64,000 nucleotides of DNA from Paramacrobiotus metropolitanus (Eukaryota; Tardigrada; Eutardigrada; Parachela; Macrobiotidae). Each line of letters starts with the position of its first letter. Position 1 is the first letter of the stretch. The notes under the pieces were generated by a model. The model was not told the origin of the DNA, did not search any database, and was given only the letters and a program-made list of their open reading frames with translations. The DNA lies in contig NW_026570228.1 in NCBI RefSeq assembly GCF_019649055.1, positions 1,178,001-1,242,000 on the forward strand, in the 5' to 3' direction. Below, one piece after another: positions 3,171 to 64,000 of this stretch. The position numbers and the translations under genes are program-made.

Positions 3171-3514
3171 TTTGTATCTATGATTAGTACTTAATATCTA
3201 ATTCTACTGAAACTCTACCGAGCGCCAAACGCACTGGGACGGCAGCGGCATGCAATACTCGTGCGAGCAGTACTCGTGCGTAAAGCATTTGACTCAATCA
3301 CTCAATGCCAAAGATTTTTGGAAACTTTGTCACTTGTGTTAATTTTCGTTCACTTTGGGATTGATCATTGCTATCACATATTTCTGTCAGGGAATTCTGC
3401 GCTTAATTCTTATCAGCTGTTTGAGGCTGCCTGATTTTGTCCTGTAGCCTACAAGCTGCAAGTGTACAACTGTGTAAGCTGTTTCTACGATCGCCGTTAG
3501 CAGCTATATCGACG
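3171..3514. other. Upstream region of B2
   Basis: Presumed promoter and 5' UTR of B2. Nothing specific was recognised. Confidence 0.4.
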
Positions 3515-9400: not shown

Positions 9401-11548
9401 CTAATCGTCGTCGGATTCAGATTCGGTTTCGTCTTCGGATTCAGACTGACCACGCTCGCTGTCCTTAGCTTCCGATTCGGACGCCTCACGCTCGCCGTTT
9501 TCGGATTCCGATCCGTTCTCGGATTCAGATTCGTCCTCGGATTCAGATTCAGACTCGTCCTTGGATTCAGATTCACACCGCACGCGCTCGCTGTCTTTGA
9601 CTTCGGATTGCATACGCTTGTCCTTCCCTGATTCCGATTTGGATTGTGCACTGTCATCCTCCGCGTATTCGGGCCACCAGAACGGCATATAACGCGACAA
9701 GGCATACAAGCAGAATAAATTCAGCTTGCTCACGTCCACGCGGGTCACATTCTCCAGCGTCCACTCGTGATTTCGGTAATGCGCCGACGGACGCGGATCG
9801 CAGGATTGGTAGTATTGTAGAACCTGCAGAATAACGTAGCAGGACTAAGCAGGTTAAGCATGTTAACTGCTCCAAGAAACGAAACAAAATATTATATACG
9901 GATTCTTAATAACACTTTTGTAAGACCGGTTCCGTTAAGAATTATACGCCAACCAGTTTAAATGATTTGTGCAAGCAAGGCAGTGACTGCATGTCAATGC
10001 CGTACCTGCATCAGTTTCTCTTTCTTCAATTTATCATCGATGTGGGAGGCCATCAGCTGGCCAATGCCATCAACATCCAACGGCGGCCCCTCGCAGCCCA
10101 GATGCAGCTCCAACAGGTCCGCAATGTGCACCTCATCCACATGTCCCGGTGTGAAGACGGCAGCAGGAATGTCGAACGCCACCAGGCACCAGCATTGCCA
10201 GGTTTCCCAGTTTAGCAGTCTGACCACCGCGTCTTTCCAGATCAAACGATCGCAACAAGACAGCAGCTTCACGATATGCGCGGTCATCTGCGCGAAAAGC
10301 GCGCAGTTCTTCCCCTGATCGGTCACTGACGGCGAGATCCCCACCGACAGCTGGTGCAGGATGATACGGTCAAGTCGGCTGCCGGCGTCGTCCACGATTT
10401 TCCGAATAAGGTCCAGTGTTTCATCGGAAACTCTCATGTCCCAGTGGTGACCGGCAGACACTTCGGGATTGCGGATACAGACGGTGCGAGTGGCGGGCGT
10501 GAGGTGTTTGACGATGCAGCCGTACATGGCGTAATTCCGGTCCCACGTTACGGGCAGTGCGGAGCTGGTCTGCTGCCGCGAAACAAGCAAATCTCGGCAC
10601 AGGTCCTCCGAAGTAAGAATGCCTTCCCACTGTTGACAGGTGCGACGGCAGCGCTGCCGGTCGACGGTGTCCAGTGAATGGAAGATCTCCTTCAGCACTT
10701 TTAAGGGCAATTCTAATCCGCTTCGAAAGAAAAGCAGAGTGCTTTTGCGCTTTGGCTCAACATCCGACTCTTCGGTTGTTTGGCGCATTTCACGGTGAAA
10801 TACAGGTAAAGAATCCATCTCTTTTTCGAACACGCTTGTCTGTGGCAAGAAAAAGCATGTCAATAGTAGTAATACTATAGATTTATTAATTATGACGCAA
10901 GTTTACTTAAACTGGACGTACCAGGTTTTGGTATCCCAAGGGCCGCTCATTGCGCCGCCGTAAATAGTGTATTTCCTGACTGAGAACCTTGATGAATCGC
11001 AGATGCAATTTGCGCTGAACTTGTTGAACAAGCATCACTGACAACTGGGGGTCCGTAGTCCAGTAGCCGTCAGGTACGCTGCAGGTGTCCATAACGAAAT
11101 GGTCTGCTGCAAGGCGTCCTGGTTGAGCGATTTGTACAGCTGCATCTCGAATTTGTCGACGTGGCACGAGTTCGCGACGACGCTGCCCGGCAATCATCAC
11201 TTCTACCAGCGCCACACAATTCAGGTTCTTGAACCAGGGGATCAGCATCTTCCCGGGATACCATTTCCAGGGGCGCCGCGGGCTGTCGTGCAGCAGGACT
11301 TGTACAGCGGCGCCCTCCCGAGCCTTGCTGCACCAGTGTGTGGAGCAATCGTAGATCGTCCCGTGAGGAACTAGCACCTGCTGCTGTGTCGGGCATCCAA
11401 AGTCGACAATCAGACGCGGCGGGGTGCTGTCGTTCTCTGACGTCTCTTCCAGGCCGATGACATATCCGTGCTGCAGATGACCGTCAATCTCCACATCCAC
11501 AGCGTTCCATGTGTACACTGATCGTTCGGAATTTTCGTACAGGTACAT
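9401..11548 (-). CDS. F1: Tudor/Agenet-like plus F-box protein with acidic tail
   Basis: Probable SCF-type (Cullin-1) substrate adaptor. Exons on the minus strand are 11548-10922, 10839-10006 and 9823-9401, all joined in phase 0, giving 627 residues. Exon A (MYLYENSERSVYTWNAVDVE) carries two Tudor/Agenet-like stretches: GHLQHGYVIGLEE with RLIVDFG, and AAVQVLLHD with WKWYPGKM and ELVPRRQIR. Exon B carries the F-box (LPLKVLKEIFHSLDTVDRQR, then RRTCQQWEGIL) and a ~200-residue region probably used for substrate binding. Exon C begins VLQYYQSCDPRPSAHYR, like the last exon of F4, F5 and F6, but continues into a Ser/Glu/Asp-rich tail of ~70 residues ending ESESDDD. The start is the ATG matching the start of F2. 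No other F copy here has the acidic tail. Confidence 0.8.
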
Positions 11549-11999
11549 TCTTAACTGTCTCGGCTGAGAGGAAGAATATAAGCCTGATGTAAAGGGCAAG
11601 GTTAGAATGATGTATTTCGTAGCGCTGCTAAAAAACGTCGAAAAGGACAAAAAGGCTTAGTGAAAGCTTACTAAAGTTCAGAGTAGTAATTACAGATACA
11701 GGCGCACATACCGTATTATGGCCGTTATTTGCAAAGCGACAGAAAGAGGCTAGCTAGCTAGGCTAGCTCGCTACAAAGAAGATACGTGCGAGGACGAGTT
11801 CACCGTTAATTGGCTGAATGTTACGTTAGGAGAATAGCGAGAACATACCGTTGCAGAGGCCGAAGAGTTTCTCAATACTTGAGAGTTTTGACAGTTATTT
11901 AAGTTCTTGCAAACGCAAGGCTCATTCACGGAAGAATGCTTAAGCTTTCACACTCGTAGTTCATACAAAATGGCCACTTCAAAGGTTCAAGAGTATCCC

Positions 12000-13410: not shown

Positions 13411-15032
13411 CTATAAGTACCATGTGAATACTGAATACCATACCTTTAGCAATTTCTTGGCCTTCTTTTTGCTAACATCCGGACGAGCCAGGTACTGGGC
13501 AATACGTTCCACGTGCAACAGCGCTCCCTCCCAGTGCAGATGTTCCTCCAACAGACCGACAATGTGCACCTCATCAACATGTGCTGGCGTGAAGACGGCC
13601 ATGGGAATCCTAAACTCCATAAAGGTCGCATGTCTCTCGTTCAGTAGAATGAGGACAAGATCCTTCCAAATCACACGGTCACAGCATGACACCAGTTTGG
13701 ACAGGTGCGCGACGATCAGGTCAGACAGTACGCGCAGTTCTCCTCGGTTGTCATCATAATCTGATGGTTCGATTTCGATCGATCGATGGTACATGATAAA
13801 ACGGCGAATACGTGTTCCCCTGTCATGCACGACCTGCTTGATACAGTCCAACGCTTCATCGAGGTAACTCAGATACAAGCGATGTTCAGACGTTTCGGCA
13901 TCGCCAATGCAGATGGTCTGAGCGCCGGTGGTGATGTGTTCGAATATGCAGGCGTACAGAGCATAATTATCACCCCACTGCACGCGAGAAGAAGGACTGG
14001 GCTGCTGCGGCGATACGCGCACTTCCTGGCACAGCTCCGCCGAGGAGAGAAGCGTCTCCCATAGTGCACAGGTGCGGAGACAGAGTTGTCGGTGAACTGT
14101 ATCCAGAAAATGGAAGATCTTTCGTAGCACTATGAGTTCCAGTTTAGATAACAAACACTCTTCTCCGACATCCAACGGCTTTTTCCGCTTTGGCTCTGAC
14201 TCTACGCTTTCCTGGAGTATTTTGGGGATGTACGACTCATTCGCACGTCTCTCTCTCGCAAACACATACGCCTACAATAAAGGTCAATAACAACAACAGA
14301 ATGCGATTTCCCATTACAATAAATTATTAACTGTAACAAGCAGAAGCCAATTCAAGCCAAGCTTCCAAAAGAGCCACTTACAAGAGCTTCATCGCCAAGA
14401 GGATCGTCGTAATCAGAAGGCCGCCATAGATAGTGCATCTGCTGACTGAGAACCTTGACAATTCGCAGCTGCAGAAACATCTCAACTCGGCGCAGCAGGA
14501 ACGCTGCTACAGACCGCTGCAGAATCCAGTAACCGTCCGGAACATTGCACGTTCCCATGACGAAACGGCCCGCTGCGAGGGGTTCGGGCTTCCCGGTCTC
14601 TCCCTCCTCCTGTGCGTCTTCCCATCCTCTGTCGCGAAGCTGTTGATGGGGCACCAGCTCGTGACGGCACTGCCCGTCCAGCATAACCTCCACCAGTGCC
14701 ATATCTTCTAGCTTACTGAACCATCGGACCAGCAGTTTCCCCGGATGCCATGTCCAAGGGCCTTCTGGACCGTCGTGCAGCAGTATCTCGACTTTACCTC
14801 CTTTGCGCGCGGTGCTGGATCGATCGATGGAGCCGTCGAAGACGGTCCCATACTCCACCTCTTCGGGCTTTTGTGCAGAGAATCCAAAATCGACGAATAG
14901 GGGTGGCGAAATGTTGTCGTTCTCTGACTTCTCTTCCAAGCCGACGACATCGCCGTGCTGCAGCACGCCTTTAATTTCGACATCCACAGCGTTCCAGGTG
15001 TACAGGGCGTCAAGATCCTTGTACAGGTGCAT
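13411..15032 (-). CDS. F2: Tudor/Agenet-like plus F-box protein lacking the C-terminal exon
   Basis: Closest to F1. Exons are 15032-14382 and 14271-13444 (minus strand), joined in phase 0. Exon A starts MHLYKDLDALYTWNAVDVEI and repeats the two Tudor/Agenet-like stretches (GVLQHGDVVGLEE; VEILLHDGPEGPWTWHPGKL; HELVPHQQLRD). Exon B has the F-box (LELIVLRKIFHFLDTVHRQL, LRTCALWETLLS) and the region that follows. A consensus donor (AAG|GTATGG) ends exon B at 13444, but no exon resembling the family C-terminus (DPRPS..YR) was found downstream. Reading through, the frame stops at 13411 after VWYSVFTWYL, giving 503 residues. F2 is either 3'-truncated, uses an unrecognised last exon, or ends by intron read-through. 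Confidence 0.72.
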
Positions 15033-15524
15033 AATAATGCCTATGACCTATCCAGAGTAGTGAAGAGGCAGATTCTGAGCCGTTTGTAACGGCATGGTAT
15101 GCTAAGGAGTAAGGATGGTAGAGATTTCCGATTCCGGTGACGTCAAAGAAAGAAGCTGCTGGTCCTGAGCCAAATTGGTATGAACCATGGATTATCTTCG
15201 GACTTTGGGGGTCAAAAATTCAAAACCCAGCTGGCAACGAGAAACGACAGAAAGCACCTGCATGCTGACGTGTCACTATGGTAACCCGGACCGCCAGCTC
15301 TGACGGTGAGCTTGCACGTAAGTAACCGTTGGTAGACGTAAGGTTTTTTTCATTTTGTGGCGCAGTTGGGAAGCTTGGGATTGATACATTAGGCGCGGTG
15401 CGCCACTAGTACTAACCGATTACATGTGCGGAAATATCGTAGTCGTCATTTGCCGATGGCCCCAGACAGCGCTATGGTTCACTTGGTTTACGAGTACTCA
15501 CTTTCGTCGATTTGTGGTAGGATC
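15033..15524. other. Intergenic between F2 and the satellite array
   Basis: Presumed upstream region of F2 and the edge of the array. Nothing specific was recognised. Confidence 0.4.
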
Positions 15525-34504: not shown

Positions 34505-37643
<3,139 letters not shown>

Positions 37644-43565: not shown

Positions 43566-45606
43566 TCACGCGACCGCAACAAGGAAAAGTAAATACACTG
43601 AAAGCGGAAGGATGAGGATCTCGGCAGTCCGCGAACCGGATCCTCGTGCATCTTCCGGTTTTGCCGTCGTCGTTGTCGGCGCGGCCGTTATGTCCGCCGG
43701 GTGACCATGTGTGGGTTCCGTCACCGCCACTTCCGTAGTCAGAAAGGGACCTTTGGTAGTCGTTGTCAGTACTTGTCCGCTGTACACCTTCACCTCGCGT
43801 CCGTTGCGCTGCTGTACCGGGCGGAAGTTATCAACCAAGACGTTGGTAGTGTCATTCATACCCGGGTGTTCCCGTAGACTGCGGAACATGTTTAACTGGG
43901 CTTGCGTAATCTGCATGGGTTCTTTGAATACCGTCCAGATCACCGCTTCGGCACACGGGGGAGTGGTTAGCGAACCCAGGTAACGATAGTAAACCGGGGA
44001 TGACGGGAGAAGGTCCAAAAGGCGGAAGCCTTTCAAGATCACGTCGTGGGATTGACCTTTCAACCAAAAATTCATTTTAGTACATTTCGTGCGCGCATGT
44101 ACATCACTTCAGTAACATATTTTTATCGTCATTAAATTTGATAGTTAGACAGAAATATAAAAAAGCCATGTTATATGAGCCTACATGAAAATGCAGTATT
44201 AAAATTAATGTTTTATAAATAATGTTTTTATAAAACACAAAAGTGTTACACGCCTTTAGATTTTCGTGAAGCACAGCAATAAACTACAGTATGCGTCTTA
44301 TCTTTTTTGGCCCAAATACGTAAGTAAAACTTTTTGATTGCATTTTACATAAAATATCTAATCTACAGCAACATGGAAAAAATGCAATTTTAGCGATAAA
44401 ACACTTGAATTGTATGTTTTACGCGTTACCGGGATTGGTGACCTCGGAAAGGGCGCTGATCATGGAATTAATATGCACGAAATGGGGATCATTTGTGTCC
44501 ACAGGATTCTCCGATACTTCGAACATAATGCCCAGCACCGCCAACCCTGTGGAATCCCCGGCCGCTTCGCTGTCGTAAAACGCACTTTTCCGGTGGACAA
44601 TGTGAAGCTGCACATTGAAACAAATGAATACAGTACACAATGCTGGAGAGGGAAAAGAAAACAACATGACTAACTTCAAGTGGAAAACGCTGCTCATCGA
44701 TCACATGTTCGGAGCCGCGCGTATTCACCGCTCCCCAATGGAAATGGAACTGCAGGAAAACGTAATCCTCTCCCAGACTTCCGCCGCGGATCTCAGGTGG
44801 AGTTGCGTAATGACCGCTAAACTGCGCTGCAATGACAACCGGTGAAAAGTCATTTATCGATTTCTAATCATCTTTAACGGTGATTGAATGCTACATCGCT
44901 TGAACGAGCGTACCAACGTGACCGTTATTGACCACCGTCCAGTTATCGTTGCGCGAGGAAGCATCGTAACGAACAAACGTGAACGGCTTCAGCGCCGGAT
45001 CATTGACGATGAAACGCGTCTCAATGGCAATCGGTGACTGCCGATGTCCGTCGCAGATCGGATATGCTTTAGACCACGTATCCGGTAAAAGATCTAATAC
45101 AAATAAGAAAATGAACTTACCGAATAATGCCGAAAACTGTAAATTTAAAAAAAACTGTAAAAACAATTTAATTATATTTCTTATGGGATAGCCTTATTAA
45201 CAGAACATATTTAGCAAAAGTATTCAACGCATTTGATCGTTTTTGACCTTCCGTATGATTTCCTTTTCCAACATAGCCCCAATGCGGTGGCGCGGGAGGT
45301 TTGGTAGCTTCAGGTGGAACACCTGGGGCTGCCGTTGCCGGGGCATTTTGTGGTTCATTCGGCGTACTCGCTAAAAATTAAATACAGCACGTTATTATGG
45401 AGAGAGTAATTTACTATACTTTTAATATGCTTCTACGGCGACTAAATTTAAATAGTTTTTACGAATAACAAAAATTGATGTTGGAGCTCACCACTCGCTA
45501 AGGTTAAGAATCCCAAAAGCACACAAATTCGATAAAACCAGCGAAACGTATATGGTCCATAAAGAAAGACCTTTAGTAGACAGTCGCAAGAGAAAAAAGG
45601 CGCCAT
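43566..45606 (-). CDS. Alpha-carbonic anhydrase, secreted and GPI-anchored
   Basis: Interconverts CO2 and bicarbonate at the cell surface. Six exons on the minus strand: 45606-45492, 45370-45248, 45093-44914, 44826-44675, 44607-44430 and 44056-43566. They sum to 1239 nt, or 412 residues. An N-terminal hydrophobic segment (FYRICVLLGFLTLAS) acts as signal peptide or anchor, followed by a Pro/Ala-rich linker. The catalytic domain opens HWGYVGKG and ICDGHRQSPIAIE. Zinc ligands are the two His of FHFHWG and the His of LHIVH, which spans the exon 4/5 junction. NNGH supplies the proton-shuttle His. GSEH and SLTTPPC are also present. After the domain come a Thr-rich stalk and a hydrophobic C-terminus (ILILPLSVYLLFLVAVA), a GPI-attachment signal as in CA IV-like enzymes. 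All active-site residues are present, so it should be active. Confidence 0.93.
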
Positions 45607-47400
45607 GTGATTGATGCAGGTGATGAGAAATTATTATAATTTATACGCAAAGCTTATTCCGGTATTATTGATGCTCCGTTAGCTGCTGATGCCTAACAGG
45701 CTATCACCGATTAAGTATACCAGAAACACATACGCCTCGCAGCCCAAACGATTTATGATGTCGCGTTTACCTTTATTCTGAACTTACGGCGGAGACAGTG
45801 TTACGATTAAACGCTCGGTCTAACATGTTTCGACAGATTTCTTCGGTGTTGTAAAAGGTGCAGCTAACCTATTGTGCATGAAGTGTTTATGGTACTTTCC
45901 ATGCTCTCTGATTGACAGGAAGACAGGAGCACTTGAGCGTTCTTCCCTTCAAAATGGCCGTAACCGCAACAATCAATCCATTGTCTACGACTATTATGCG
46001 ACGTTGCCTACTCATGGTCAGATCCAAAAACAAGACCTCTCTACGTACAGGGTACAGCTAAATCCAAAGATACGACTTTTGTCCAAAATAATTTATGTAC
46101 GAAGAAAATGCATGAAACCAATTAAACAGTTTCGATCGCGAGTTTAATCAGACTGCAATTTAATGCTAAGCCACTAACCAAACAGACTTTTCGACTTAAA
46201 TATCGTACAAACAGTGGTTAATCGATCGATGAAATGTCTAATAGTAAAGAGTATAACGACGAACATGCCCACATTATGAAACTGTAGGCGTAACAAGTAA
46301 ATTTTTTTTCTTCCAGTCATTGTTAAGTTGTTAAGTGGTAACAGTTTCTGGCAGTAACACTAGTCAGCTAATCACTAGCACTGTAAATACGGTAAAGGGC
46401 ATCACTCAGCCGCAAAACTGCTGCAGACTAACACATCCACCTAATGCCTATATTGTACAGTATTGTCGATACTTGTACAGGTGGCTCTTGACAATAAATT
46501 CAATAATCAACACAAATGACACTTGACACAATCAGTTAATACTACTATATCACATACGGCATGATCCGACATCTTATGTAGCTTTTTTCGTTTTTATCTG
46601 TACCAGATTTGAGTTTACGAAGTCAGTGTCTGGCTGGTTTAGTTGCAGTGTGTTGCACTGCTTTCGTGCATGCACCGTTACAATACTTTTTACTTTACTC
46701 TTTCAAAATGCTGCCATGAAATAAAAAAAGCAACTAAAAATTTTTAAAACCACCCTGATTTTAATGGTATGCAGGTGAGTAGATGTAGACTATAAGCGAG
46801 CGAACCTAGACGAATCTAGACTAACAACAATAGACTGCGAGTGTTATGCACTAATTCTCTCGCTGTTCGTTTCAACATACCAAAGTTTCCAAATACGTAA
46901 AAACTGCACACCTGCGATTTTCTACCCGAGTACCGTATGAAAAAGCGACACGGTAGTAAACTCGCACAAGAGTGAAGGGAATTTCATGCCATCTGGACTG
47001 TGATAACCTAACCATTCAGAAAAATCAAGACACTTAGAAAGTTAAGTTCAGAATCTAGGAACCGAAGGTGTGTTTGACGGACAGGCACGAAATGCATACA
47101 TGTAATATCCAAAAAACGCTATATAACTGTATGTCACTATTTGGCATATTAACCAAAAACTATATGTCACTGTAAAAACAAAATACCTGTAAAAATAAAA
47201 TAACTACAACTGTCTGATTCTGTAACAACAAAATAACTGCAACTTTCGTGCGAAGGAAATTCCCCTGATGAAATTAAGCGACATCAAGTGTTTGTTGTGT
47301 AAAGGACGACAAGGAGAAAGATGTTTACATCCTTCAAAATCTACCGCGACAGCATCTGCCAAGATGCACACAGCCCGAACGCTTAGGAATCCCTTGAAAA
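45607..47400. other. Intergenic, nothing recognised
   Basis: Upstream of carbonic anhydrase. AT-rich; short ACTATATGTCACTGTAAAA-type repeats near 47110-47230. No gene recognised. Confidence 0.4.
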
Positions 47401-47682
47401 TCCGACCACAGAGAGGAACCCGCAAAGTATGACGAGGTCCGCATAGCACTGCTGCCACCGGCAATTCTGAAAGAAATCGTCCATTTACTGAACACCAATG
47501 ACCGGGTGCGCTTCCGGCGCACTTGTCAATTGTGGGAACAAATTAATAGCTTGCCGGAACTGTGCCGCATTATGCATGTGCTATTCCATAATGAGCATAT
47601 CATTAGTACTGGGAATTTCAGCTACTGCTCCCAGACGTTTGGCTTGCTACGGGTTGGATTCCGCGAACGGTCACCGACTTAA
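47401..47682 (+). pseudogene. F-box exon relic of family F
   Basis: The frame 47401-47682 reads LLPPAILKEIVHLLNTNDRV, then RFRRTCQLWEQINSLPELCR. This matches the F-box of F1 (LPLKVLKEIFHSLDTVDRQR, RRTCQQWEGIL..EDLCR). It has no ATG, a TGA shortly upstream and TAA at 47680-47682, about 60 codons past the F-box core. No N-terminal or C-terminal family exon was found nearby. Most likely a broken copy related to F1 and F2. Confidence 0.72.
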
Positions 47683-48661: not shown

Positions 48662-50400
48662 TTATTTAGATGTGGCTCTTACTTTGCAAACTCCATTGCG
48701 ATGCACCCAGTGCCAACCGTCATTCCCCGCCAGGATCTCCGCTAACCACTTTGACAGCGCCCGCAACTCATTCCTACTTGGTGCCGGCAGCGTCGCCTCC
48801 AACGCTTCCCACACTGCAGACGCGCAGTTACCGTTCAGCGGCACACGCGCCCTGGGGATGACGACGTTTAGCTGCATAGGTTCTCGAGCATAGCGCATCA
48901 GCTCGTACTGCAGGTTCATGTTGAACCGGACCAGATGGATGGTATTACACGGCAGACCACAATAAGCTGCAATGAAATCATCCAAGCAACCATAGGAAAC
49001 AATCCGTTTACCATCCACGCTGTCCGGGTTATGCACTGTGCAGCTTTCATGCGTCACGTTCTCCGGCCCATCGCGTTGATCTAAGACCAAATTGGAGAAT
49101 CCCACCACATAGAGCGCATTCAGGTGGATCCCGGGCCGAGCCTTCGCCATTTGGTGGATGACGTCCAACACGGTGAAAAACTCCCCCAAAGTTGTATCCG
49201 TCGCCCGGATTCTACCAAAGCTGCGAACGATAATGTTCTTAGTTGAGGAGCACAGAAACTTGACAATGGGCGCCGTTAGTTCATAGTCACTGCGTTGCCG
49301 CTCCAGTGGATTCCCGATGCCAACGCTCGTCTCAACAATAATGTTGGTGGCCAAAGTAGGAGCATCCAGAATAGAGTTCCACAAAGGGCATACCGCGCGC
49401 AGCCCGGTCTGCGTCATCGTGTCCACATTGGAGAACACATGTAGCCACTCATCGGCTCCCAGCGCACGCGATTCGTCAACAAGCCTGCGTTCAACCGGTG
49501 CCGTGGCTTCAAGCAGGATGCCGGGGAGGCGCTGAATCAATACATTATGTAATGGCTGAATTATTTCCTGCAAGAAAAATTCGGTAAACCGAGTAACACC
49601 AAGCGCACCAGATATGGTCCGTGAAACACGCCTTACACGGAAGTTCCGAGTCGGAACCATGAGACCGAGACACATACCTGCCTCGCATCTTCAGGCAGCG
49701 GAAGCACGACCCCATCGTCCAGCAGCACAATGTACTGCAGCTGCGCATCCATGACATCGATGCAGTCCACCTGACCTTTGAAGGCTTTTTCTTCCTCCAT
49801 CACCCGTTGCAGGTGTGCTTTTGACGCCCCACGACAGTCGTCCGGCAACGGCATACTGCGCTTGACAAATCGTCCCTGTTCAATACGCAGCGGCAGCGTC
49901 GTATTCGGCACCATTGCACCATTATGGTGCTCCATCGTCCACCAAGTGCTCGGCACGGGCCAGCGGATGCGGTGCTTAGAGAAGATTTCCGTCCAGGTGA
50001 CGGCGGGTCGGTCTTCCGTGACGGCCATGTCCTCCTCCCCCTGGACGACCGCCACACTGCAGCATACCCAGTACGTACGCCAGAATAATGGGCCCGGCGC
50101 CTGCCGCGCCATCACTTTCCCGGGCCACCAGCGCCATGCACCGCTAGAATCATCACGGCGCAGTACTTCCACAGAGACCGCCTCCCCCGACTCTCCGTCC
50201 AACATCCCACTATAATCGCGTGATGTGCGTTCAGTGCGCTGTGACAAGGCGAGTTTGTGGAAAGGAAAGAATTCGCGGCGACGACCGGAGCACAGTAGGT
50301 CCATATAGAGCCCGTTGTCCGCCACGTCCACCACACGGCCATACAACAGAGTGTTGTTGTCACCCAGAACGTTGACATAGCTGGTCCGCTTTGAAAACAT
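48662..50400 (-). CDS. F3: Agenet-like plus F-box protein
   Basis: Probable SCF substrate adaptor. Exons are 50400-49678 and 49567-48683, joined in phase 0. Exon A begins MFSKRTSYVNVLGDNNTLL and has two Agenet-like repeats (GRVVDVADNGLYMDLLC, then AVSVEVLRRD, WRWWPGKV and WTEIFSKHRIR). The linker GRFVKRSMPLPDDCRG and the segment QLQYIVLLDDG follow. Exon B starts EIIQPLHNVLIQRLPGI and has the F-box (LGADEWLHVFSNVDTMTQTG, LRAVCPLWNSIL) and the family's ~200-residue C-terminal region. Exon B ends at a donor (AAA|GTAAGA at 48683). No matching third exon was found, and read-through stops at 48662 after VRATSK, giving 542 residues. The upstream in-frame ATG at 50469 is not used because paralogues start at the equivalent of 50400. 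Confidence 0.78.
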
Positions 50401-51397
50401 GGCTGGATACTGACGGATTTCCGGGTGGTTTCTAACAAAGCGCAACGACCGAAACATTAAGAAAAACAAACAGAAACATTATTATTTCTTGCGGGCCCGT
50501 TGTCGAACCGCGAACTGTTTAAGCTTATTTGATAGAGAATTTATTCGACTATCAAATCAACAAAGCGTTCTTAAAAGTGTTTAGTCGTGCTCGTTTGTAC
50601 TGGAGCCACTTGAAATCGGGTGATTTTTTTTCGTGTCCTTGGTCTCAAAACCCAGAATTTCGTAGCACTTCCTTCCAGTACGTACTATTTGAAAAATCTC
50701 CAGTGTTCTATCTAGAGCATGTCTACTTTGATTAAAAAAAAGTTGTAGACATCGTGCATTCACGGGAAGAGTTATGCAATCAGAACAGTTTGTAACTTTC
50801 CGAAAAAATGATGGTTTTTTAATTAATTTTTATGGGATTTTTAATCTAACCTTTGGCATTACGGACTGCACCAAAAAATTCCAGTTTTAGCTTTTTACAG
50901 TAGCTAATGTACTGCGCTTGCAGAGTCAGTGTTGAACCAGATAAACTTCTGAAGGGCTGGCCAGAAATTTACTATCAAAATCCCTGCTTACGAATTTCAT
51001 GAAAATTGTTCCGTGCCTAATCGCCGAAATTCCGTGTACTCGTATTGATCGAACACGGTTACCAGAATACAGCAGTTCGGTAGCAGAAAAACTAGAGACC
51101 ACCCCTCAACCCGAAACAGCAACGTTAGACAGTCGTTAGTTACATTAACGCTCTTTGCTGAACAACTGCAATTTTTAGTTTATGATAAGGTAATTTCAGA
51201 CTTCTCTTTTCAGGACATCATCAAAACCTGCCCAATTTTTAAAAGAAACAATTTAGGATGAAATCAGACCTTTGCCTAATATAATCCGAGTTTAATTTTT
51301 GTATGTACGAGGAGGGGGTAAATCAGCTCGATGCACCCGAGCAATGGGTAACAGAGCTCGTTATCTGTGCCCGCGCCTGTGCAACACGGTTAGCCAC
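50401..51397. other. Upstream region of F3, nothing recognised
   Basis: AT-rich flank. No exon recognised. Confidence 0.4.
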
Positions 51398-52978: not shown

Positions 52979-54799
52979 TCATAGCCACGTGCAGCGAACC
53001 AGATGCAAGACATCACACGGCAGACCGCGGCATGCTGCGGTGAAATCATCCAGGTGGCCAGCGGTAAGATCCTGCGGCATCTCAGCGTTATGCACCCCGC
53101 AGAACTCATGCCAGATGGATCCGGAGAAAATGTGTTCATGGCCCAGTTTGGACCGCAAGTCCGTGACGCCTACCACGTACAGCACCGTCAGATGGATCCC
53201 GGGATGAGCCGCGCCACATAATGGATTATGTCCAACATGGCGAAGAACTTCGGTAAACCGATACTGCCCTGCTGTCGGTCGTGGATGATAATGCGATTAG
53301 TGGAAGGACGCAGGCATTTGAAGATAGGCCCCGTTAGGATGTAGTCAAAATTTCCGGGCTCAGCGCTGGTGTCGATGAGAATGTTGTTCGTCAAAATAGG
53401 CGCGTCAAGAACAGCGGTCCATATGGGACACGCTGCGCGCAGCGAGGTCCGCGTCATCGTGTCCAGATGGGCGAATACTTGCTGCCATTCATCCACGCCC
53501 AGTGCATGGGATTCATCCACCGGTTTCGGTTTAACACGAGCCGTCATCTCACGCAGGGTGGCTGGGAGATATTTTATAAGCGCCTGATGCAGCGGTCGAG
53601 CAATTTCCTGTTACAGACTCACAATAAGTATAAATTTATCATGACCGCAACTCGATGAACAGACGAAATTAAACACAAAACAAACCCGCGGACTGCTCTC
53701 GAGAACGGAAATGTGGTTCCCTTACCAGACGCGCGTCCGGCGCGTATTTGGTACTGAGGGCCAGGGGCGGCAACCGGGTGCACTTTGGTAAACAAGTTGT
53801 AGGGGGCGGACGGAAATTTTAAACTAAATTTGCAAACAAGTCGAAAAGATAAAAAACAGTAATTTTATAAAATCAACAACTTTTATAAAAAATTTTTCTA
53901 TATAAATTCAAAAAGAGTTTATGAAACTTGAAAACAGATTGAAATTTATTACGATTTTATTACGATTCAGTCAAGCCTCTATGACCTTTGCAGTGCTTCC
54001 GCAAGCACTATCAAAGTGAAGGGTAACCTTATTTGCGAGATTGCCTCGCAGCCGCAGAATGCCAGAGAAAGTTGTTTCTGATGAAACCTCGTTCCCAAAG
54101 CACTAAGCGTTAGCTTCAGGTTTACAATCTATACTGAAGTATAGGAGGGCGAAAACACGCGGCCACAAACAGCCACCATGACTTTTTGTTGCTACCGCTT
54201 TGTTGATTTTTTCTTCCGCTCTTCTGGCGCTTCCATCTCCCCGCATGTGAGGCAAATGTTTCGCGGCACAACAAAATCAACTAACAGGACCTATAGTTTA
54301 TTCATGAAAAGTGTTGGTTTTAGGTTATCTCAATTTATGCGCTAGGCAACCACAATTCTCGGTAGGGCATTTTTAACATACAAGTCAATGGGACATACCC
54401 CTTGTTGCAGCGCTAAGCCAACAACTGAACGCGAAAGATTTTTGTCTTGGCCCGTGAAAAATACCTTTTGGGTCATTCAACAGTTTACAGAAAAGTTCGC
54501 GCAAAAATATCGATCGGCGAATTTGTTAGAGGGGCAGGTGTAAGCAGCCTAAAAAGGACTACTACCTCTTCCCCTAAATCAACGCTCGGCCCGCTACTGA
54601 CACTGAAAAACCACTTTCCTGCCAGGCTCGCCAACAGTCAACAGGCCAATATATCTGCCGGCTAAAAACGTCGACGCTCGGGGCACAGCAGATCGATGTA
54701 AAGCCCGTTATCGGACACGTCCACCACACGACCGTACAGGAGGACGTTGTCATCGTCCAGTTCCACAACACTGATGTGACTGGACCGTGCCACAAACAT
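52979..54799 (-). pseudogene. F7: broken Agenet-like plus F-box gene
   Basis: Relic of the F3/F6 subfamily. The exon A remnant, 54799-54662, reads MFVARSSHISVVELDDDNVL and GRVVDVSDNGLYIDLLCPER, then hits TAG where paralogues continue into EFFPF. The sequence beyond is foreign and carries a dispersed repeat. Exon B begins at 53607 (EIARPLHQALIKYLPATLRE) with the F-box (LGVDEWQQVFAHLDTMTRTS, LRAACPIWTAVL). A one-base deletion near 53210 shifts the frame within the HYVARL..PGIHLT block. The rest (LYVVGVTDLRSKLGHE to LHLVRCTW) is in another frame and similarity stops near 52979. No C-terminal exon seen. Three independent lesions make it a pseudogene. Confidence 0.85.
54350..54600. repeat. Dispersed repeat, copy 2, adjoining the F7 break
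   Basis: Shares ordered words with 29441-29720 (TTAACATACAAGTCAATGGG; ACCTTTTGGGTCA; ACTACCTCTTCCCCTAAAT). It lies just beyond the point where F7 exon A is interrupted (54662) and may belong to the insertion that broke the gene. Confidence 0.5.
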
Positions 54800-56053: not shown

Positions 56054-58680
56054 ATGTTTGCGGCACGGACCAGTCATATCAACATCGTGGGCGACAACAA
56101 GACCCTGTTGAACGGCCGTGTGGTGGACGTTGAGGACAACGGTCTCTACATTGATCTACTGTGCAAAGACCGTCTCTGCGAATTCTTCCCATTCAACAAG
56201 GTCTTCCTGTCCAAGGCCTGCGAATTCAAAGAGTACAGTCGTGAGGATGAGTCATGGGAGACGGTTTCGGTGGAAGTACTGCGTCGTGAATATCCCGGCG
56301 GTGCGTGGCGGTGGTGGCCCGGAAAAATTATCAGTCCGCTGGTGTCAGGCTCATCATCGTGGTTGGTGTACTGCACCGTGGCCGTTGTCCAGGGGCAGGA
56401 TGACAGCGGGGCCACCTGGACGGATATCTTTCCAGAACACCGCATCCGCTTCCACGTGCCGGACTACTGGTGGGCGGAGCGATTGAAGGAGCGACAGAGG
56501 ATTCCGAATGTAACGCGGCCAGCGTGCATTAAACCGGGGCGCTTTGTCAAGCGCAGCATGCCATTGCCAGCTGGCTGCCGTGGGACCTCTGCAGTTCAAC
56601 TACTGCAGGCACGGAATGAGCCGAAGATGGCCCTGTTGAATATCTGGGACTGGCTGGGTAAACCATCCGGCCAGGTGGTTTGCGTCGACGTCGTGGACGG
56701 GCAGTTGCAGTATATCGTAGACCTGTACGATAGCATGACGCTGCCGCAGCGTGAAGACTTAGCAGAGGTTCGTGAGTAACTTATTACACCTGGGTGGACC
56801 TTGTTTCCCGGGAAATTGGGTTACGTTTCTTTTTCGGCGGTTTGCTGAATGTCGTTGTGGTTGTTTGCAGAAGATCATTGAGCCGCTGCACGCCGCATTG
56901 ATTAAAAGCCTTTCGGAAATCCACCGCAAGAATGCGGCGTGTGCGGAACGTGGGATGATGGATGGGTCCCCTGATCTGGGTGTGGATGTGTGGCAGGAAG
57001 TGTTCGCTCATCTGGACACGGTAACGCGGACCATGCTGCGCACGGTGTGCCGTGCCTGGGACGCTATTCTGGACATAGCGGCAATGACCGGCGACATTGT
57101 CATCGATTTATCCGACGAACTCCGCTCTTTCCACCTCAGAGGATACGCCCTAACTGCGCCCTTCTTCAAGTGTCTGCGGCGCTCTATCAAGCACGTCATT
57201 TTGCACAACAACGGCCCCAAAAATCACATCTCTTCAGAGGGCATCTTCAGCGTTTTAGAAGTGATTAGCTTCATGGTGCGCACCCATCCCGGGATCCATC
57301 TGACGGCACTGTATGTCGTCGACGTGAGAAACTTGCTCGCGGAACTCGGCCATTTTCTAACTGAACCTGCAGAGCCCGAGAGCTGTGAAGTGCATGATCT
57401 CGACGACTTAGCCGATGGAATGCCGCTTTTTAACTCAGGTCATCTGAACCATTTCATCGCATCGTGCCGCGGTCTGGCGTGCGATGCCGTTCATCTGGTC
57501 CGATGCAAGATGTGCCTGCAATACGACATGCAGGACCATTTCGGCGAGGTCATTCAGTTTGAAGTCGATATGCCGATGACCCGAATGGTTGTTAACGGAG
57601 ATGTGGCATCCTCGGTGTGGGATGCGTTGGAGACGGCGCTGCCGGCGCACAGCGACGACGAGGTGCGGGCTCTGTCGAACATGTTAACTGCGATTACGGC
57701 GGACAACAGCCAATGGTTTCCAAGCATGGCGGTCGGCAAGGTAAGGACTAAGGTTGAATGAATGTGGAATGGCATCCAGTCCTGGGCTCAAGCTTAGAGT
57801 TAGCGCATATCCACGGATTACTTATACGTTCATGTATGTTGTAACGGTTAGCGTTGTTAATTCTAAATTGAAGTCCCTCGTATAAATATTTACCTATTTA
57901 TATCTTACAATCGAGCAGTGACAAACGAGCACCAACACAATGAAGTTTTATGATGGAACAGACGTAACTGCTTCACAGTTTACATGGTCACCACAATTTG
58001 TCCAACTAAGTTTTGCACTTAAATTTTCTATCAGAGTTAGTACTTGATTTCGCGCCTAAAAACAAAAACCATACTTAAAAACAAGAAATACAAGTAACGG
58101 CGATCATCGATTCATCGTGTTAATTCATTTTCGTCCTTGCTTATAGGTGTTGTGCACGGTGCAGACCGCGGATCCGCGTCCGTCCTCGGCTTACCGCGGG
58201 AAGAGATGGTGCAGGGATGGAGTGCAGGATCTGCGCTGGGAGAAGCTGTCCCGCATTACTCTGTGCTTCCTTCTCAAACTGTCCGATTTTCTGCGTGGCT
58301 ACCTTGATGAATCTCCGGCGTCATCGGACTCGGAATAACTAGCGGCGGTTTTCATCCAACGTCCCTCTCCTGTTGCTGTTGTAATTCATTGTTATCGCTT
58401 CTGTAGCGACTTTAGTTTGTTAGCTTGTTTATTTGATTGGATTGTGAGCGTTCTCGATTGGCGGATGTCTTGTGTTTGCTTCAGCAGAGCGTCTGCTCTA
58501 CATGAGATTCTGTTGTTTTGTAATGGTGCCGGAGAGGCGGGATGTCCACGCTACACAATGATTTCTTCAGTTTCGAGTTCAAGTTGCCACGGCGATGTTG
58601 TGAATCCAAATGATCCAATAAAATTCAGTTGGTCGCGTCGCATCACTGCAATCGTAGAACATCATGCAAAATGGATGTAG
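55480..58680. repeat. Segmental duplication, unit 1 (F4 and flanks)
   Basis: The upstream flank (from GTTTCTGCGGATTTTCCCTG near 55502), all three exons, and the 3' flank (to about 58680) recur around F5. Shared 3' words include ATGAGATTCTGTTGTT, AATGTCCACGCT-like and TGATTTCTTCAGTTT. Confidence 0.75.
56054..58338 (+). CDS. F4: Agenet-like plus F-box protein, intact
   Basis: Probable SCF substrate adaptor of 591 residues. Exons are 56054-56767, 56871-57740 and 58147-58338, all phase 0. Exon A (MFAARTSHINIVGDNKTLLN) has Agenet-like repeat 1 (GRVVDVEDNGLYIDLLCKDR, then CEFFPFNKVFLS) and repeat 2 (VSVEVLRREYPGG, WRWWPGKI, VAVVQGQDD, WTDIFPEHRIR). It then has GRFVKRSMPLPAGCRG and a KH0-like end (GQVVCVDVVDGQLQYIVDLY). 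Exon B starts KIIEPLHAALIKSL and carries the F-box (LGVDVWQEVFAHLDTVTRTM, LRTVCRAWDAIL), then a ~220-residue region (HVILHNNGPK, HPGIHLTALYVVDV, FIASCRGLACDAVHLVRC). Exon C is VLCTVQTADPRPSSAYRGKR, then WCRDGVQDLRWEKLSRITL. It is tandem with F5. Confidence 0.88.
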
Positions 58681-59009
58681 ATATTGCCTATTTAACTTGT
58701 CCTACCTTCAACGGAAGTCGTCTGTAATGAATGTTGACGTTCTGCCAGCGACTGCTGGATCGGCTGCATTAATTTTGCATGACGCGTATTATTTTCTTCA
58801 TCCCGCGCGCTTGCCGGCTTTACCGGCGCAGTTACAGAGAATACTTGAGTTGTTGTACTTTATGCATTGGTGGTACATATGTCTAATCTCTGCTCATCTA
58901 TCTGATCAGGTGCAATTATGTACCACCCGTGCATAGGGGCTTTATTCGGGAATTTTTGTTTCAATTGGTAAGGTTGGCCTGCTAACGCCGCCTACTCTAC
59001 CACTGTTCG

Positions 59010-61880
59010 TAACTATTGGGAAGTTTCCTTGTCTGTGCATTTCATGCGTTTTTATCAGCTGCCGTGGCTACTCGTACAGAAAGCTTTTTCGTTTTAGTGG
59101 GTTGATTCAAAGGTTTTGTGACAATATCATCAATAGCGCTAAAATTTCAGGGTTTTTTGTCACAAAGTTACTCCGGCACTCATCAGGTGCCGTGCGACGC
59201 TTTGAAACTCGCATTTTATACTTTGCTTGAGCGCGGGATGTGCAGATTTGTTTGAATCATAAGGTGAGACTATTCACTTGTGTCAGTTACGTGGGAAAAC
59301 TAATAATGTTGAAGTCCAGCATGCTCGCTAAAATCATTGGTCTTCTCCACTTTCTATTGAAAGTGTCTACATGGCATACCCCCTGTGTCTACAGTACATG
59401 GATGGTGTCTGCATGGACTGAAGTGTCAGTTACCATTACTGGGAAAAATTATGTTCGTCTTTGCAGATTTTTACCTGAGCCGAGCGAAGTGTCTTGCGGA
59501 TGATCGTACGCTGTACACCAGTACCTGAAAATCCTTCGCGTCAGCTATGTTTGCCGCACGTACAAGTCAAATCAACGTTGTGGGCGGCAACAACACTCTG
59601 CTGTACGGTCGTGTAGTGGACGTGGCGGACAACGGTCTCTACATCGATCTGCTGTGCCGCGACACTCGTCCCGAATTCATTCCTTTCGACAGAATCTTCC
59701 TATCGAAAAGCAGTACACTGGTAACAGAATATCGTCGCACGGCGGAGCCTTGGAACTGGAAAACGGTTTCAGTGGAAGTGCTGCGCCGTGAATATCCCGG
59801 CGGTGTGTGGCGTTGGTGGCCCGGGAAAATTATTAATCGACTACTGTCAGCCTCGTCATTTTGGCCGATGCATTACAGCGCGGCCATCGTTCAGGGACAG
59901 GAAGACAATGGCGCCACCTGGACGGACCTCGTCCCCCAGCACCGCATCCGCTTCTGCGTGCCGGAATACTGGGTGACGGAGCAAACAAAGGACCAACGGC
60001 AGGTTCCGCATGTGACGCTGCCAGTGCGCATCCCTCCGGGAAGCTTTGTGAAGCGCAGTATGCCACTGCCCGCTGATTGTCGTGGTACATCAGCAGTACA
60101 GCTACTGCGGGTGAGGAACGAGGCGAAGATCCACCGGCAGAATGTTCTGGCCTTGTTAGGTAAATCTGCCGGCCAGGTGGTTTGCGTCGACATCGTGGAC
60201 GGGCATGTGCAGTATATCGTGGAACTATACGATAGTGACACTCTTCCGCAGCCTGAAGACCCGGCACAGGTTTGTCAATATTTTAATAAATCCGATGAAC
60301 CTTAGTGTCATCATGTCATCGGAAAATAGTGTCATCATGTTTGTCGTCCGCTTGCTGATCTACTGCTATGATTGCTTTATTTGTTCCTAGAAAATCGTTC
60401 AGCTGATGCACACCGCGCTGATTGAACGCCTTCCGGACATCCTCCGCGAGGCGGCGGGCTCGGTTGAACGGGGGATGATAGATGGATTTCCGGCACTGAG
60501 AGCGGATGTGTGGCAGGAAGTGTTCGCCCCCCTGGACACGATGACGCGGACCATGCTGCGCGCGGTGTGTTCGGCTTGGGATGCTATTCTGGATACACCT
60601 GCTCTGGCGGCTGATATTGTCATCGAGATAAGCACGGCCGGCGAACACCTGCGTCGTTTCTACTATGGAGGATACACCTTAACGGCGCCCATCTTCCGGT
60701 GCCTGCGTCCCTCTACCAAGCACGTTATCTTACATAACCGGGGCCCCAAGAGCGACATCAGTTTAGATGACACCCTTGCCGTTTTAAACGTGATTTGCTA
60801 CATGGCGCGGGCCCATCCCGGAATCCATCTGACTGCATTTTATATCGTTGGCGTTAAAAACTTGTACGCGGACCTCGGCTATTATCTCGTTGAACCCTCG
60901 GGGCCACACAGCTGTCCAGTGCATGACATGAACGACTTTGACGGAAATGGGGTGCCGCAGTTTAATTCGGGTCACTTGAACCATTTCATCGCATCGTGCC
61001 GGGATTTGGGGTGCGACGCCATCCATCTGGTCCGATGCAGAATGTGGCTGCACTACGACATGCTGGACATATTCGACAAGCTCATTCAGTTTGACTTCGA
61101 CATGCCCCTGACGCGGCTGCTGCTGAGCGGGGATGTCACGTCGAAGGTCTGGGATGCGCTGGAGGCGGCGATGCTGGCGCTCAGCAGCGAAGAGATGGGA
61201 GCGATGTCGGATTGGTTGGCCGCAATCACGACGGATAACAACCAATCGTTTCAGCGCATGGCAGTCTGCCAGGTAAGGTCAAGTTTTGAGGGCTATTAGC
61301 CGAAGCTTCTCACAGTCAATATGGTCTCGTATTTGTGACGTCACTCTATAACCGTATAAGCGATTGTTTTCAGGTCTTGTGCACGATGCAGATCGCGGAT
61401 CCGCGTCCGTCCTCGCACTACCGCGGGAAAAAGTGGTGCAGGGACGGCTTGCAGGATCTGCGCTGGGAGAAGCTGTCTCGCATTACGCTGCGCTTCCTTC
61501 TCATGCTGCCCGATTTCTTGCGTGACTACCTTGCTAAATCTACGGTGCCACCGGACCCGGAGTAACAAGCGGCGGGTTTCACCCAACATCCGTCTCCTCT
61601 TGCTGTTGTAATGCACTGCTATTACTTTTTTTTGACTTTAGTTTGTTAGAGGGTTTATTATTTTTCGTGCTGGCGTTTTTGTTTGGCGGCTGTTTCCTGT
61701 TTGCTTCTGCTCCTGCTCTTTATGAGATTCCGTTGTGAAATGGTACCGGATCGGCGCAATGTCCACGCTTTATGGTGATTTCTTCAGTTTGAAGTTCAAG
61801 CTGCACACGACCATTTGATAAAACCATAGTTATGATCGAATAGAATTCAGTTCGTCGCATTGTTCTTTCTGCCATGAATG
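59010..61880. repeat. Segmental duplication, unit 2 (F5 and flanks)
   Basis: Diverged copy of 55480-58680. Exons are strongly conserved, introns and flanks less so. Matching flank words are GGGTTGATTCAAAGGTTTTG upstream and GGTGATTTCTTCAGTTTGAA downstream. Confidence 0.75.
59547..61565 (+). CDS. F5: Agenet-like plus F-box protein, intact
   Basis: Tandem paralogue of F4, 598 residues. Exons are 59547-60269, 60391-61272 and 61374-61565, all phase 0. Exon A begins MFAARTSQINVVGGNNTLLY. It has repeat 1 (GRVVDVADNGLYIDLLCRDT, EFIPFDRIFLS) and repeat 2 (VSVEVLRREYPGG, WRWWPGKI, AAIVQGQED, WTDLVPQHRIR), then GSFVKRSMPLPADCRG and GQVVCVDIVDGHVQYIVELY. Exon B carries KIVQLMHTALIERLPDILRE, the F-box (LRADVWQEVFAPLDTMTRTM, LRAVCSAWDAIL) and the shared C-terminal region. 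Exon C is VLCTMQIADPRPSSHYRGKK, then WCRDGLQDLRWEKLSRITLR. It converges on F6, with about 675 bp between the gene ends. Confidence 0.88.
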
Positions 61881-62239: not shown

Positions 62240-64000
62240 CTATCCTGGGGACAGGCAATTGCGAAGGAAATCGGGCAGGATTAAAAGAAAACGCTGCGCA
62301 ATGCGGGACAATTCCTCCAAGCGCAGATCCTGCAGTCCCTCCGCGCACCATTTCTTTTCCCGATAGTGCAAAGACGTCCGTGGATCAGCGGTCTGCGTCG
62401 TGCATAACACCTACCAAACAAAGGAATGCTCTTGAGTGAAAATAATCGGCACCATCACGCCAGTGCCAGTGCCAAACAGTTACTGGACTATATTTTTACG
62501 CTTATTTAATTACTCGTATTTTGATCCTCTCCCTAATTTATTATTATTTATCATCATATTTATCTGAAATATTTTGATTAACATTTTATGTTGACTAGGT
62601 AAGAAAATCCAATAAGTACTCTGTGCTACTCTTACATTGCCGACGGCCTTGCGATGCAGCTCGTAGCCCTCCTCTGTCGTGATCATCGTCAGCCATTTCG
62701 ACAGTGCCTCCATATCCTTCACGCCGGTCACCGACAGCGCCCCCTCCAACGCAGCCCACACTGAGGACGCCGGATCTCCGCTCAGCGGCAGACGCGTCCT
62801 GTTCATGATGATGTACAGCTTCATGACCTCGTCCCACTTTTGCCGCAGGTTGTACTCCAGGAGCCACGTGCAGCGGACCTAATGCAAGGTATCACACGGC
62901 AGACCGCGGCATGCCGCGATGAAATCATCCAAGTTACCAGCGGTACGGTCCTGCGGTATTTCAGCAGTATGCACCCCACAGCGCTCATGCCAGATCGATC
63001 CGGAGAAAAGGCTCTGTTCATGACCCAGTTCCGAGTGCAGATCTGTGACGTCCACCACATACAGCGCCGTCAGATGGATCCCGGGGTGAATCCGCGCCTT
63101 GTAATGGATCATATCCAACAACACAAAAAACTCGGGTAAACCGATGCTTCCCTGCTCTCGATCATGCACCATAACGCGCTTAGTGGAAGGACGCAGACAT
63201 TTGAAGATGGGCGCCGTTAAGGTATAGTCGATGTTTCGGCGCTCAGCGTTCGTCTCGATCAGAATGTTAGCCGTCAAAGCCGGCGCACCAAGGATTGCGG
63301 TCCATATTGGACACACCGCGCGCAGCGAGGTCTGCGTCATCGTGTCCAGATGGGCGAACACCTGCTGCCACTCATCGACGCCCAGTGCAAGGGATTCATC
63401 CATCGGCTCACGTTCTGCAGGAGGCCTCATCCCACGCCCGAGAGATCCTGGATCAGCGCCTTGTGCAACGGCCGAAGAATTTCCTATTACAATCACAACA
63501 ACTCGGTAAACTGCCTACAAGACGCGAACTAGTGGTTATTTTCCTCTTAAACTGTTCTCGCAAACGTGACATGGCTAATCCAAATCAACCAGAACAGTAG
63601 TACTTATATCTGTCACAACAACAACAGCTGTCACGACAACAGAATAGATAGCGGATTTTCTAAGCCCAGTCAAGCTGGCTGACATAACAGTCAACCGTGG
63701 ACGGTATCATTATCCCACAGCCCCATTCTAGGTCCCCATAACAATCCACCGCGGTTGGTTGCAGCGTGTGATGGACACACGCAATGTTGGGTAATACATA
63801 GATCGGCATGAGATCGTTAAATCCGCTACCACTGTCGATTGCACGCCTTCCTGTGCGTAGAATGGGACATGATGCTGAGTAGTGCGACAGCGGTTTTCCT
63901 GTCACGGATAGAAAAACTGACGTACCTGTGCTGCATCTTTGATCTGTGAGTACCCGACGCCCTCCTCCAACGCTACAATATACTGCAGCTGCCCCTCCGC
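62240..64000 (-). pseudogene. F6: broken Agenet-like plus F-box gene (5' end outside window)
   Basis: Exons on the minus strand: the end of exon A at 64000-63926 (GQLQYIVALEEGVGYSQIKD, donor CAG|GTACGT), exon B 63483-62636 and exon C 62410-62240. Exon B begins EILRPLHKALIQDL. Relative to F5 it lacks seven bases near 63425-63450, which shifts the frame before EREPMDESLALGVDEW. The F-box (LGVDEWQQVFAHLDTMTQTS, LRAVCPIWTAIL) follows, then HPGIHLTALYVVDVTDL. A TAG at 62881-62879 replaces the Leu of LHLVRC, after which the same frame continues to RKAVGN. Exon C is intact (VLCTTQTADPRTSLHYREKK, WCAEGLQDLRLEELSRIAQR). Two lesions indicate a pseudogene, although splice sites are kept. The 442-bp intron 63925-63484 holds nothing else. 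Confidence 0.85.

Follow-up and report, generated by a model that had tools for sequence, protein, structure and literature searches.

A multicopy family of F-box genes with an FMRP-like N-terminal module in a tardigrade genome

To our knowledge, the N-terminal module of FMRP has been described in Fragile X proteins alone, and which natural ligands it binds is a matter of continuing dispute. We also know of no FBXL protein with an FMRP-like module, and UHRF1, a ubiquitin ligase that offers a functional analogy, is itself a RING ligase. The tandem Tudor of UHRF1 is described as similar in arrangement to that of the FXR proteins, with UHRF1 reading through Tudor 1 and FXR through Tudor 2 (PMC2970552). 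In FXR1, the methyl-lysine pocket of Tudor 2 is given as Y95, W97, V66, and E104 (PMC2970552), where we read the printed W97 as W79, since position 97 of the FXR1 chain is an alanine. The tandem Agenet of FMRP is reported to bind FUS and LSM14A as well, and F32L and Y96L weaken binding (PMC5430443). Nematodes, in turn, have expanded F-box families, and their F-box A2 class has captured a transposase HTH domain (PMC12062965).

The genes that we compare with these systems lie in a 64-kb stretch of the Paramacrobiotus metropolitanus genome (hereafter, the window). Two complete tandem genes, each with three exons (A, B, and C), occupy positions 56054-61565 of the plus strand, where 56054 is the ATG of gene 1 and 61565 is the final base of the gene 2 stop codon. 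GT-AG sites are present at all four introns, and the spliced products are open, at 591 amino acids for gene 1 and 598 for gene 2. The exons of genes 1 and 2, respectively, span 238 and 241 codons (A), 290 and 294 codons (B), and 64 codons with the stop (C). The features of the pair, with the evidence for each in parentheses, are as follows.

56054..56767, plus strand: gene 1 exon A, FMRP-like Agenet 1 - Agenet 2 - KH0-like module (splicing, translation, alignment, Pfam Agenet)
56871..57740, plus strand: gene 1 exon B, helix, F-box, and probably an LRR-like region (splicing; Pfam F-box)
58147..58338, plus strand: gene 1 exon C, C-terminal tail and stop (splicing, translation)
59547..60269, plus strand: gene 2 exon A, FMRP-like module (genome search, alignment, PDB profile, model, Foldseek)
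59556..59714, plus strand: gene 2 Agenet/Tudor barrel 1 (five strands in model residues 13-59; hhalign to host FMR1)
59769..59960, plus strand: gene 2 Agenet/Tudor barrel 2 (five strands in model residues 78-140; spanned by the PDB profile matches)
60030..60269, plus strand: gene 2 KH0-like region, strand, helices, and two strands (model secondary structure; Foldseek to KH0-containing FMRP chains)
60391..61272, plus strand: gene 2 exon B, helix, F-box, and probably an LRR-like region (profile, model, Foldseek, splicing)
60502..60630, plus strand: gene 2 F-box (Pfam F-box-like E 0.053 and F-box E 0.074, both under the cut-off)
61374..61565, plus strand: gene 2 exon C and stop (splicing, translation)

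The motifs singled out in the first-pass annotation, GRVVDVADNGLYIDL, VSVEVLRREYPGG..WRWWPGKI, HRIR, and FVKRSMPLPADCRG, are all found in exon A of gene 2, and gene 1 shows single-residue differences from them. The F-box that it had placed in the exon following exon A was confirmed in both genes.

Our data show that exon A resembles the FMRP/FXR N-terminus both in sequence profile and in predicted fold. A profile of 45 exon A paralogues was run blind against 177,635 distinct PDB sequences, and the top six of its 10 matches (E ≤ 10) were FXR1, FXR2, and four FMRP chains, with E values of 0.0021 to 0.04 and in order through both Agenet domains; the seventh was a ribosomal protein (E 0.21). FMRP/FXR was detected among the PDB sequences only with this 45-member profile; for exon A of gene 2 alone, the best match was amyloid precursor protein at E 1.1, which is not meaningful. 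Among the five exon A frames of the window scanned with Pfam, two had Agenet matches, all under the cut-off; exon A of genes 1 and 2 scored E 0.0053 and 0.047, respectively, which for gene 1 corresponds to 17.6 bits against a cut-off of 27. Across the 45 members, Pfam gave weak matches to Agenet (4 of 45, E ≤ 1), the FMRP-specific Tudor (1 of 45), and S1 (4 of 45).

The AlphaFold2 model of exon A, obtained from the 45-member alignment (pLDDT 80), displays two five-stranded barrels followed by a strand, helices, and two strands. Foldseek analysis of this model against PDB uncovered 10 matches at E ≤ 0.001, every one of them from FXR1, FXR2, or FMRP. FMRP chains comprising Tudor-Tudor-KH0 take the first six places (E 2.3e-8 to 1.9e-7, 224-233 columns aligned), and Tudor-only FMRP/FXR chains score worse (E 1.5e-5 to 7.7e-5) than the chains that contain KH0. 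For the six FMRP chains, the TM-score by target length is 0.43-0.47 and the rmsd 7.3-8.4, modest values that we take as a caution and read as probably reflecting different domain placing and longer loops. Collectively, the profile and fold searches both returned FMRP/FXR and support the Agenet-Agenet-KH0 order that had been proposed for exon A from its letters. We regard Agenet 1 as secure, Agenet 2 as good, and KH0 as supported mainly by fold.

The host genome also contains an ordinary FMR1, in which Tudor_FRX1, KH_9 (KH0), and KH_1 (two stretches) are recognised and the end of the protein is rich in RGG. It is located at L054:4250-6142 (minus strand) as a single open frame of 630 codons inside which no intron was seen. 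The exon A profile aligned with this protein in order over residues 4-151 (hhalign probability 95%, E 3.1e-8), and the first 212 residues of host FMR1 scored 54.8, whereas 200 shuffles averaged 13.1 and never exceeded 22.9. When the parts were aligned separately, Agenet 1 scored 39.2 (maximum of 14.6 among 60 shuffles), Agenet 2 scored 18.3 (equalled by 1 of 60 shuffles), and the KH0 region of exon A scored 16.7 against the host KH0 (equalled by 0 of 60), a marginal result at the sequence level. Extending the KH0 region with the start of exon B did not improve the match (15.7, equalled by 2 of 60). On these separate scores, it is Agenet 1 that provides the sequence evidence, whereas order and fold support Agenet 2 and fold is the main support for KH0.

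The KH0 model, when run against the genome at E ≤ 1, found FMR1 as its sole match. Recognising degenerate KH domains from sequence is reported to be difficult (PMC9603430). Among the 45 members, the start of KH0 is conserved at F171 (41 members), K173 (37), L178 (38), and P179 (39), and an arginine occupies the place of FMRP R138 in 21 of the 45, in a register aligned by eye. KH0 may obtain its last helix from exon B, which is predicted to open with one. In common with the N-terminus of FMRP, FXR1, and FXR2, the family has the domain order, the modelled barrel topology, and the positions of the WW pair, of the R-[IL]-R with which barrel 2 ends, and of the F-x-K...LP with which KH0 starts. It differs in having longer loops between barrels 1 and 2 and before KH0, a mostly incomplete methyl-lysine cage, and an F-box joined on. 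In addition, Pfam found no KH_1 in exons A and B at E ≤ 10, and both spliced proteins lack an RGG-rich C-terminus, whereas host FMR1 has both.

The Pfam F-box model (PF00646) matched 28 of 29 exon B rows at E ≤ 1, with a best E value of 2.1e-9; one row among them duplicates gene 2, having been taken from an overlapping locus. Relative to the cut-off of 20.5 bits, gene 1 scores 20.3 and gene 2 is weaker, at 13.5. The model of exon B is only fair (pLDDT 68) and opens with a helix at modest confidence. Foldseek analysis of exon B against PDB gave zero matches at E ≤ 0.001, and the best two were FBXL5 with SKP1 (E 7.8e-3) and FBXL2 with SKP1 (E 0.044). We read exon B as an F-box with, probably, a degenerate LRR-like region behind it. 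With FBXL5 and FBXL2 it shares the F-box and a beta-alpha region, and it differs from them in that its modelled repeats are not clearly defined and an FMRP-like module stands in front.

The association of the two exons extends well beyond the window. After removal of eight duplicate loci, 47 distinct copies of exon A (from the fetched loci and the window) reached the C-terminal part of the profile, and in 44 of them an F-box exon adjoins exon A on the same strand within 1.5 kb. In the other three, the F-box exon was not found within view. By eye, a piece resembling the first helix of exon B can be seen at L016 (after 1816, plus strand) and at L023 (downstream of exon A, minus strand); at L042, not even the start of exon B is visible beside exon A. 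The reverse check of four high-scoring F-box loci revealed an exon A-like module upstream in two (E 5e-16) and its absence within ~2 kb upstream in the other two. The fusion, an architecture that the first-pass annotation said would be unusual, stands in 44 of 47 copies. Among the matches listed from open-licence PubMed Central papers, none describes an FMRP module fused to an F-box.

At least five more relatives were found on the minus strand of the window, and their features are as follows.

49678..50412, minus strand: relative, exon A (alignment)
48665..49576, minus strand: same relative (48.7-50.4 kb), exon B with F-box (Pfam F-box E 0.00094, 19.5 bits, cut-off 20.5)
10910..11656, minus strand: distant relative (the 10-kb relative), exon A-like open frame (E 2.9e-10 to the exon A profile)
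9997..10902, minus strand: distant 10-kb relative, F-box exon (Pfam F-box E 1.2e-8, 35 bits, over the cut-off)
14355..15047, minus strand: second distant relative, exon A-like frame (E 6.2e-12 to the exon A profile)
13411-14271, minus strand: second distant relative, F-box-like exon (E 5.7e-63 to exon B of the 10-kb relative)
62510..63514, minus strand: relative at the window end, exon B pieces (locus 62510-64000, running past the window)

Exon A of the relative at 62510-64000 lies mostly outside the window, at C8:1241911-1242621, which is equivalent to window positions 63911-64621. A fragmentary relative is also present on the minus strand at 54668-54787 and 52979-53610, with only the first 40 residues of exon A and with exon B spread over two frames. 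Moreover, a lone F-box fragment was observed at 47398-47679 (plus strand), a 94-residue frame similar to the F-box exon found in the distant 10-kb relative (E 2.3e-9).

For exon A of gene 2, the search of the genome (169.8 Mb, 533 contigs) scored 150 of 763 first-look candidates and yielded at least 152 matches at E ≤ 0.001. Members of two other branches, used as queries, had at least 153 matches (150 of 865 candidates scored) and at least 150 (150 of 1004 scored). A figure of more than 150 copies is therefore rough and likely low, since split genes are counted twice and copies with stops are included, and since most candidates are unscored. The similarity is not due to chance, given these genome matches (at least 152) and the alignment of the exon A profile with host FMR1, which exceeded 200 of 200 shuffles. 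For the Pfam F-box, the genome search yielded 1080 candidates, and all 150 of those scored were matches.

Other loci in this genome carry FMRP-type Tudor domains as well. Four genes on the minus strand (L058:1014-2042, L060:1654-2484, L061:1612-2577, and L062:1332-2339) have an FMRP-type first Tudor in one long exon, with Tudor_FRX1 E values of 0.00013 to 0.023, under the cut-off, and no F-box was recognised in the 3-3.5 kb fetched for each of them. They are perhaps a second FMRP-like family. In addition, short exons of 94-102 aa at L055:1221-1517 (plus strand, 30.4 bits), L056 (plus strand, 27.9 bits), and L057:1402-1710 (minus strand, 26.4 bits including neighbours) encode an FMRP-type Tudor 1 that exceeds the cut-off.

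We consider it moderately probable that the F-box genes are lineage-expanded animal SCF (Skp1-Cul1-F-box) substrate receptors with an FMRP-like recognition module. What the analysis establishes is the gene structure, the fusion, the similarity in sequence and predicted fold, the copy number, and purifying selection among close members. The F-box would dock on Skp1-Cul1, and the FMRP-like module, perhaps together with the LRR-like region, would bind RNP or chromatin-associated proteins of the kind that partner the FMRP N-terminus and present them for ubiquitylation. Skp1 binding is a prediction, in line with the structural matches to FBXL5-SKP1 and FBXL2-SKP1, and substrate recruitment, ubiquitylation, and the identity of the substrates are predictions as well. 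The family would have grown by duplication and divergence, and different copies therefore probably recognise different targets. As in the expanded nematode F-box families, it is a large lineage-specific family with an extra domain, often N-terminal in those families, and it differs from the nematode F-box A2 class in that the added part is an FMRP-like module and not a transposase domain (PMC12062965).

Such a family has broader significance for FMRP biology. Its more than 100 diverging copies of the module, most of the fetched ones tied to an F-box, amount to a natural mutational series in which kept and changing surfaces can be compared, and this series bears on what the module binds in the absence of KH1, KH2, and RGG. 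The catalogue of expanded F-box families also gains an unusual candidate for a substrate-binding domain, and the family suggests receptors that would pick targets in the molecular neighbourhood of FMRP for destruction.

One of these targets could be FMRP itself. The N-terminus of FMRP takes part in self-association and partner binding, and the normal FMR1 of the host carries the same module at its N-terminus, so that the module of the F-box proteins might pair with or compete against FMRP/FXR or their partners, and the family might regulate or degrade the host FMR1 protein. Indeed, SCF-Fbxo4 is reported to target Fxr1 directly (PMC5688124). However, more than 150 matches would seem far beyond the need of a single target, and exon A paralogues are 26-70% identical to gene 2, outside which range fall the two distant relatives in the window, at 19 and 25%. 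We therefore consider this possibility unlikely.

Quite unlikely, in our view, is that exon A acts as a methyl-lysine reader for chromatin or RNPs, comparable to Tudor 2 of FXR1/FXR2, steering ubiquitylation to methylated proteins in the manner of UHRF1. In gene 2, the residues at the FXR1 Y95, W79, V66, and E104 positions are G121, W95, V82, and D131 (alignment numbering). Across 45 members, the E104 position (131) is acidic in all 45, the V66 position (82) is V or I in 41, and the W79 position (95) is W, F, or Y in 31, a pattern that favours a reader, as does the FXR tandem Tudor arrangement, which is like that of UHRF1 (PMC2970552). By contrast, W, F, or Y occupies the Y95 position (121) in only 16 of the 45, and both gene 1 and gene 2 have G there. 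The complete four-position cage is found in 7 of the 45 members and is incomplete in 38, including genes 1 and 2, and the suggestion in the first-pass annotation of a reader of methylated lysine or arginine is a weak one. Moreover, FXR1 and FXR2 themselves are reported to bind H4K20me3 weakly, with a Kd of 448-692 micromolar (PMC2970552), and histone binding by FMRP has been questioned (PMC5430443). Given the weak H4K20me3 binding by FXR and the binding of FUS and LSM14A by FMRP, RNP proteins are at least as plausible as histones as partners of the module. Based on the cage counts, a reader function is possible for a minority of the family and unlikely in its classical form for genes 1 and 2.

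In a tentative and less probable extension of the substrate-receptor reading, an animal lineage might have made the front end of FMRP the part by which a large ubiquitin-ligase receptor repertoire recognises its targets. More than 150 diverging Agenet-Agenet-KH0-F-box adaptors would then survey RNP or chromatin proteins, and some of them, the complete-cage members, would do so by reading lysine methylation.

We also weighed convergence, i.e., that exon A consists of two ordinary Tudor-like barrels with neither a KH0 nor common descent with FMRP. Identity to the ten PDB chains is 13-18%, and the Pfam KH0 model (KH_9) is silent in the family, unmatched by all 45 members, as convergence would lead one to expect. 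Against it, the next fold match after FMRP/FXR is the SETDB1 Tudor at E 6.9e-3, ~90-fold worse than the weakest of the ten; domain order and spacing agree with FMRP/FXR; and the FMRP-specific Tudor model of Pfam independently reaches family member C65:323715-323840 (22.1 bits, under the cut-off). Convergence thus appears very unlikely to us, and we infer that the exon A module descends from, or shares ancestry with, the FMRP/FXR N-terminus, FMR1 being its putative source.

Three other origins were rejected. The viral fold library contained zero matches at E ≤ 0.001, and a search of plasmids in 'near' mode gave no match. Capture of a transposon domain by an F-box gene has been described in a screen of 10 million eukaryotic proteins for gene families with transposon or viral domains, and the main text of that report is without Agenet, Tudor, or FMR (PMC12062965).

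Pairwise dN/dS values (Nei-Gojobori) among five close members, 10 pairs for each exon, ranged from 0.25 to 0.44 in exon A and from 0.34 to 0.54 in exon B. It is hardly credible that the family is dead or decaying and kept only as relics, as the internal stops in some copies, the broken-up window member at 54668-54787 and 52979-53610, and the three of 47 copies without an F-box exon nearby might suggest, since dN/dS is well under 1 for both exons in 20 of 20 comparisons, which indicates genes under constraint, and most of the listed genome matches have, by eye, an open frame of >200 aa. Only in a 23-codon linker ahead of KH0 does dN/dS exceed 1 (1.20 when 10 pairs are pooled), and this stretch is too short for a claim. 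Overall, these pairwise comparisons of close members gave no signs of adaptive evolution.

Several further features were observed in the window. Three related frames on the plus strand (5448-5930, 37122-37640, and 42489-43004) carry a motif like GEKVFAKKNENWHAARIRGIDGNQFRLKW and may encode another small barrel domain; they gave no significant match to Pfam. Repeated frames with near-identical peptide stretches extend over 17200-22020 (plus strand), and because of these stretches we regard the region as a tandem or dispersed DNA repeat. A long TA repeat, which reads as poly-Tyr-Ile, occupies 36500-36880. Finally, BTB and BACK fragments are present at 3425-3976 and 572-922, and a carbonic anhydrase exon (Pfam E 9.1e-28) is located at 43569-44108 on the minus strand.
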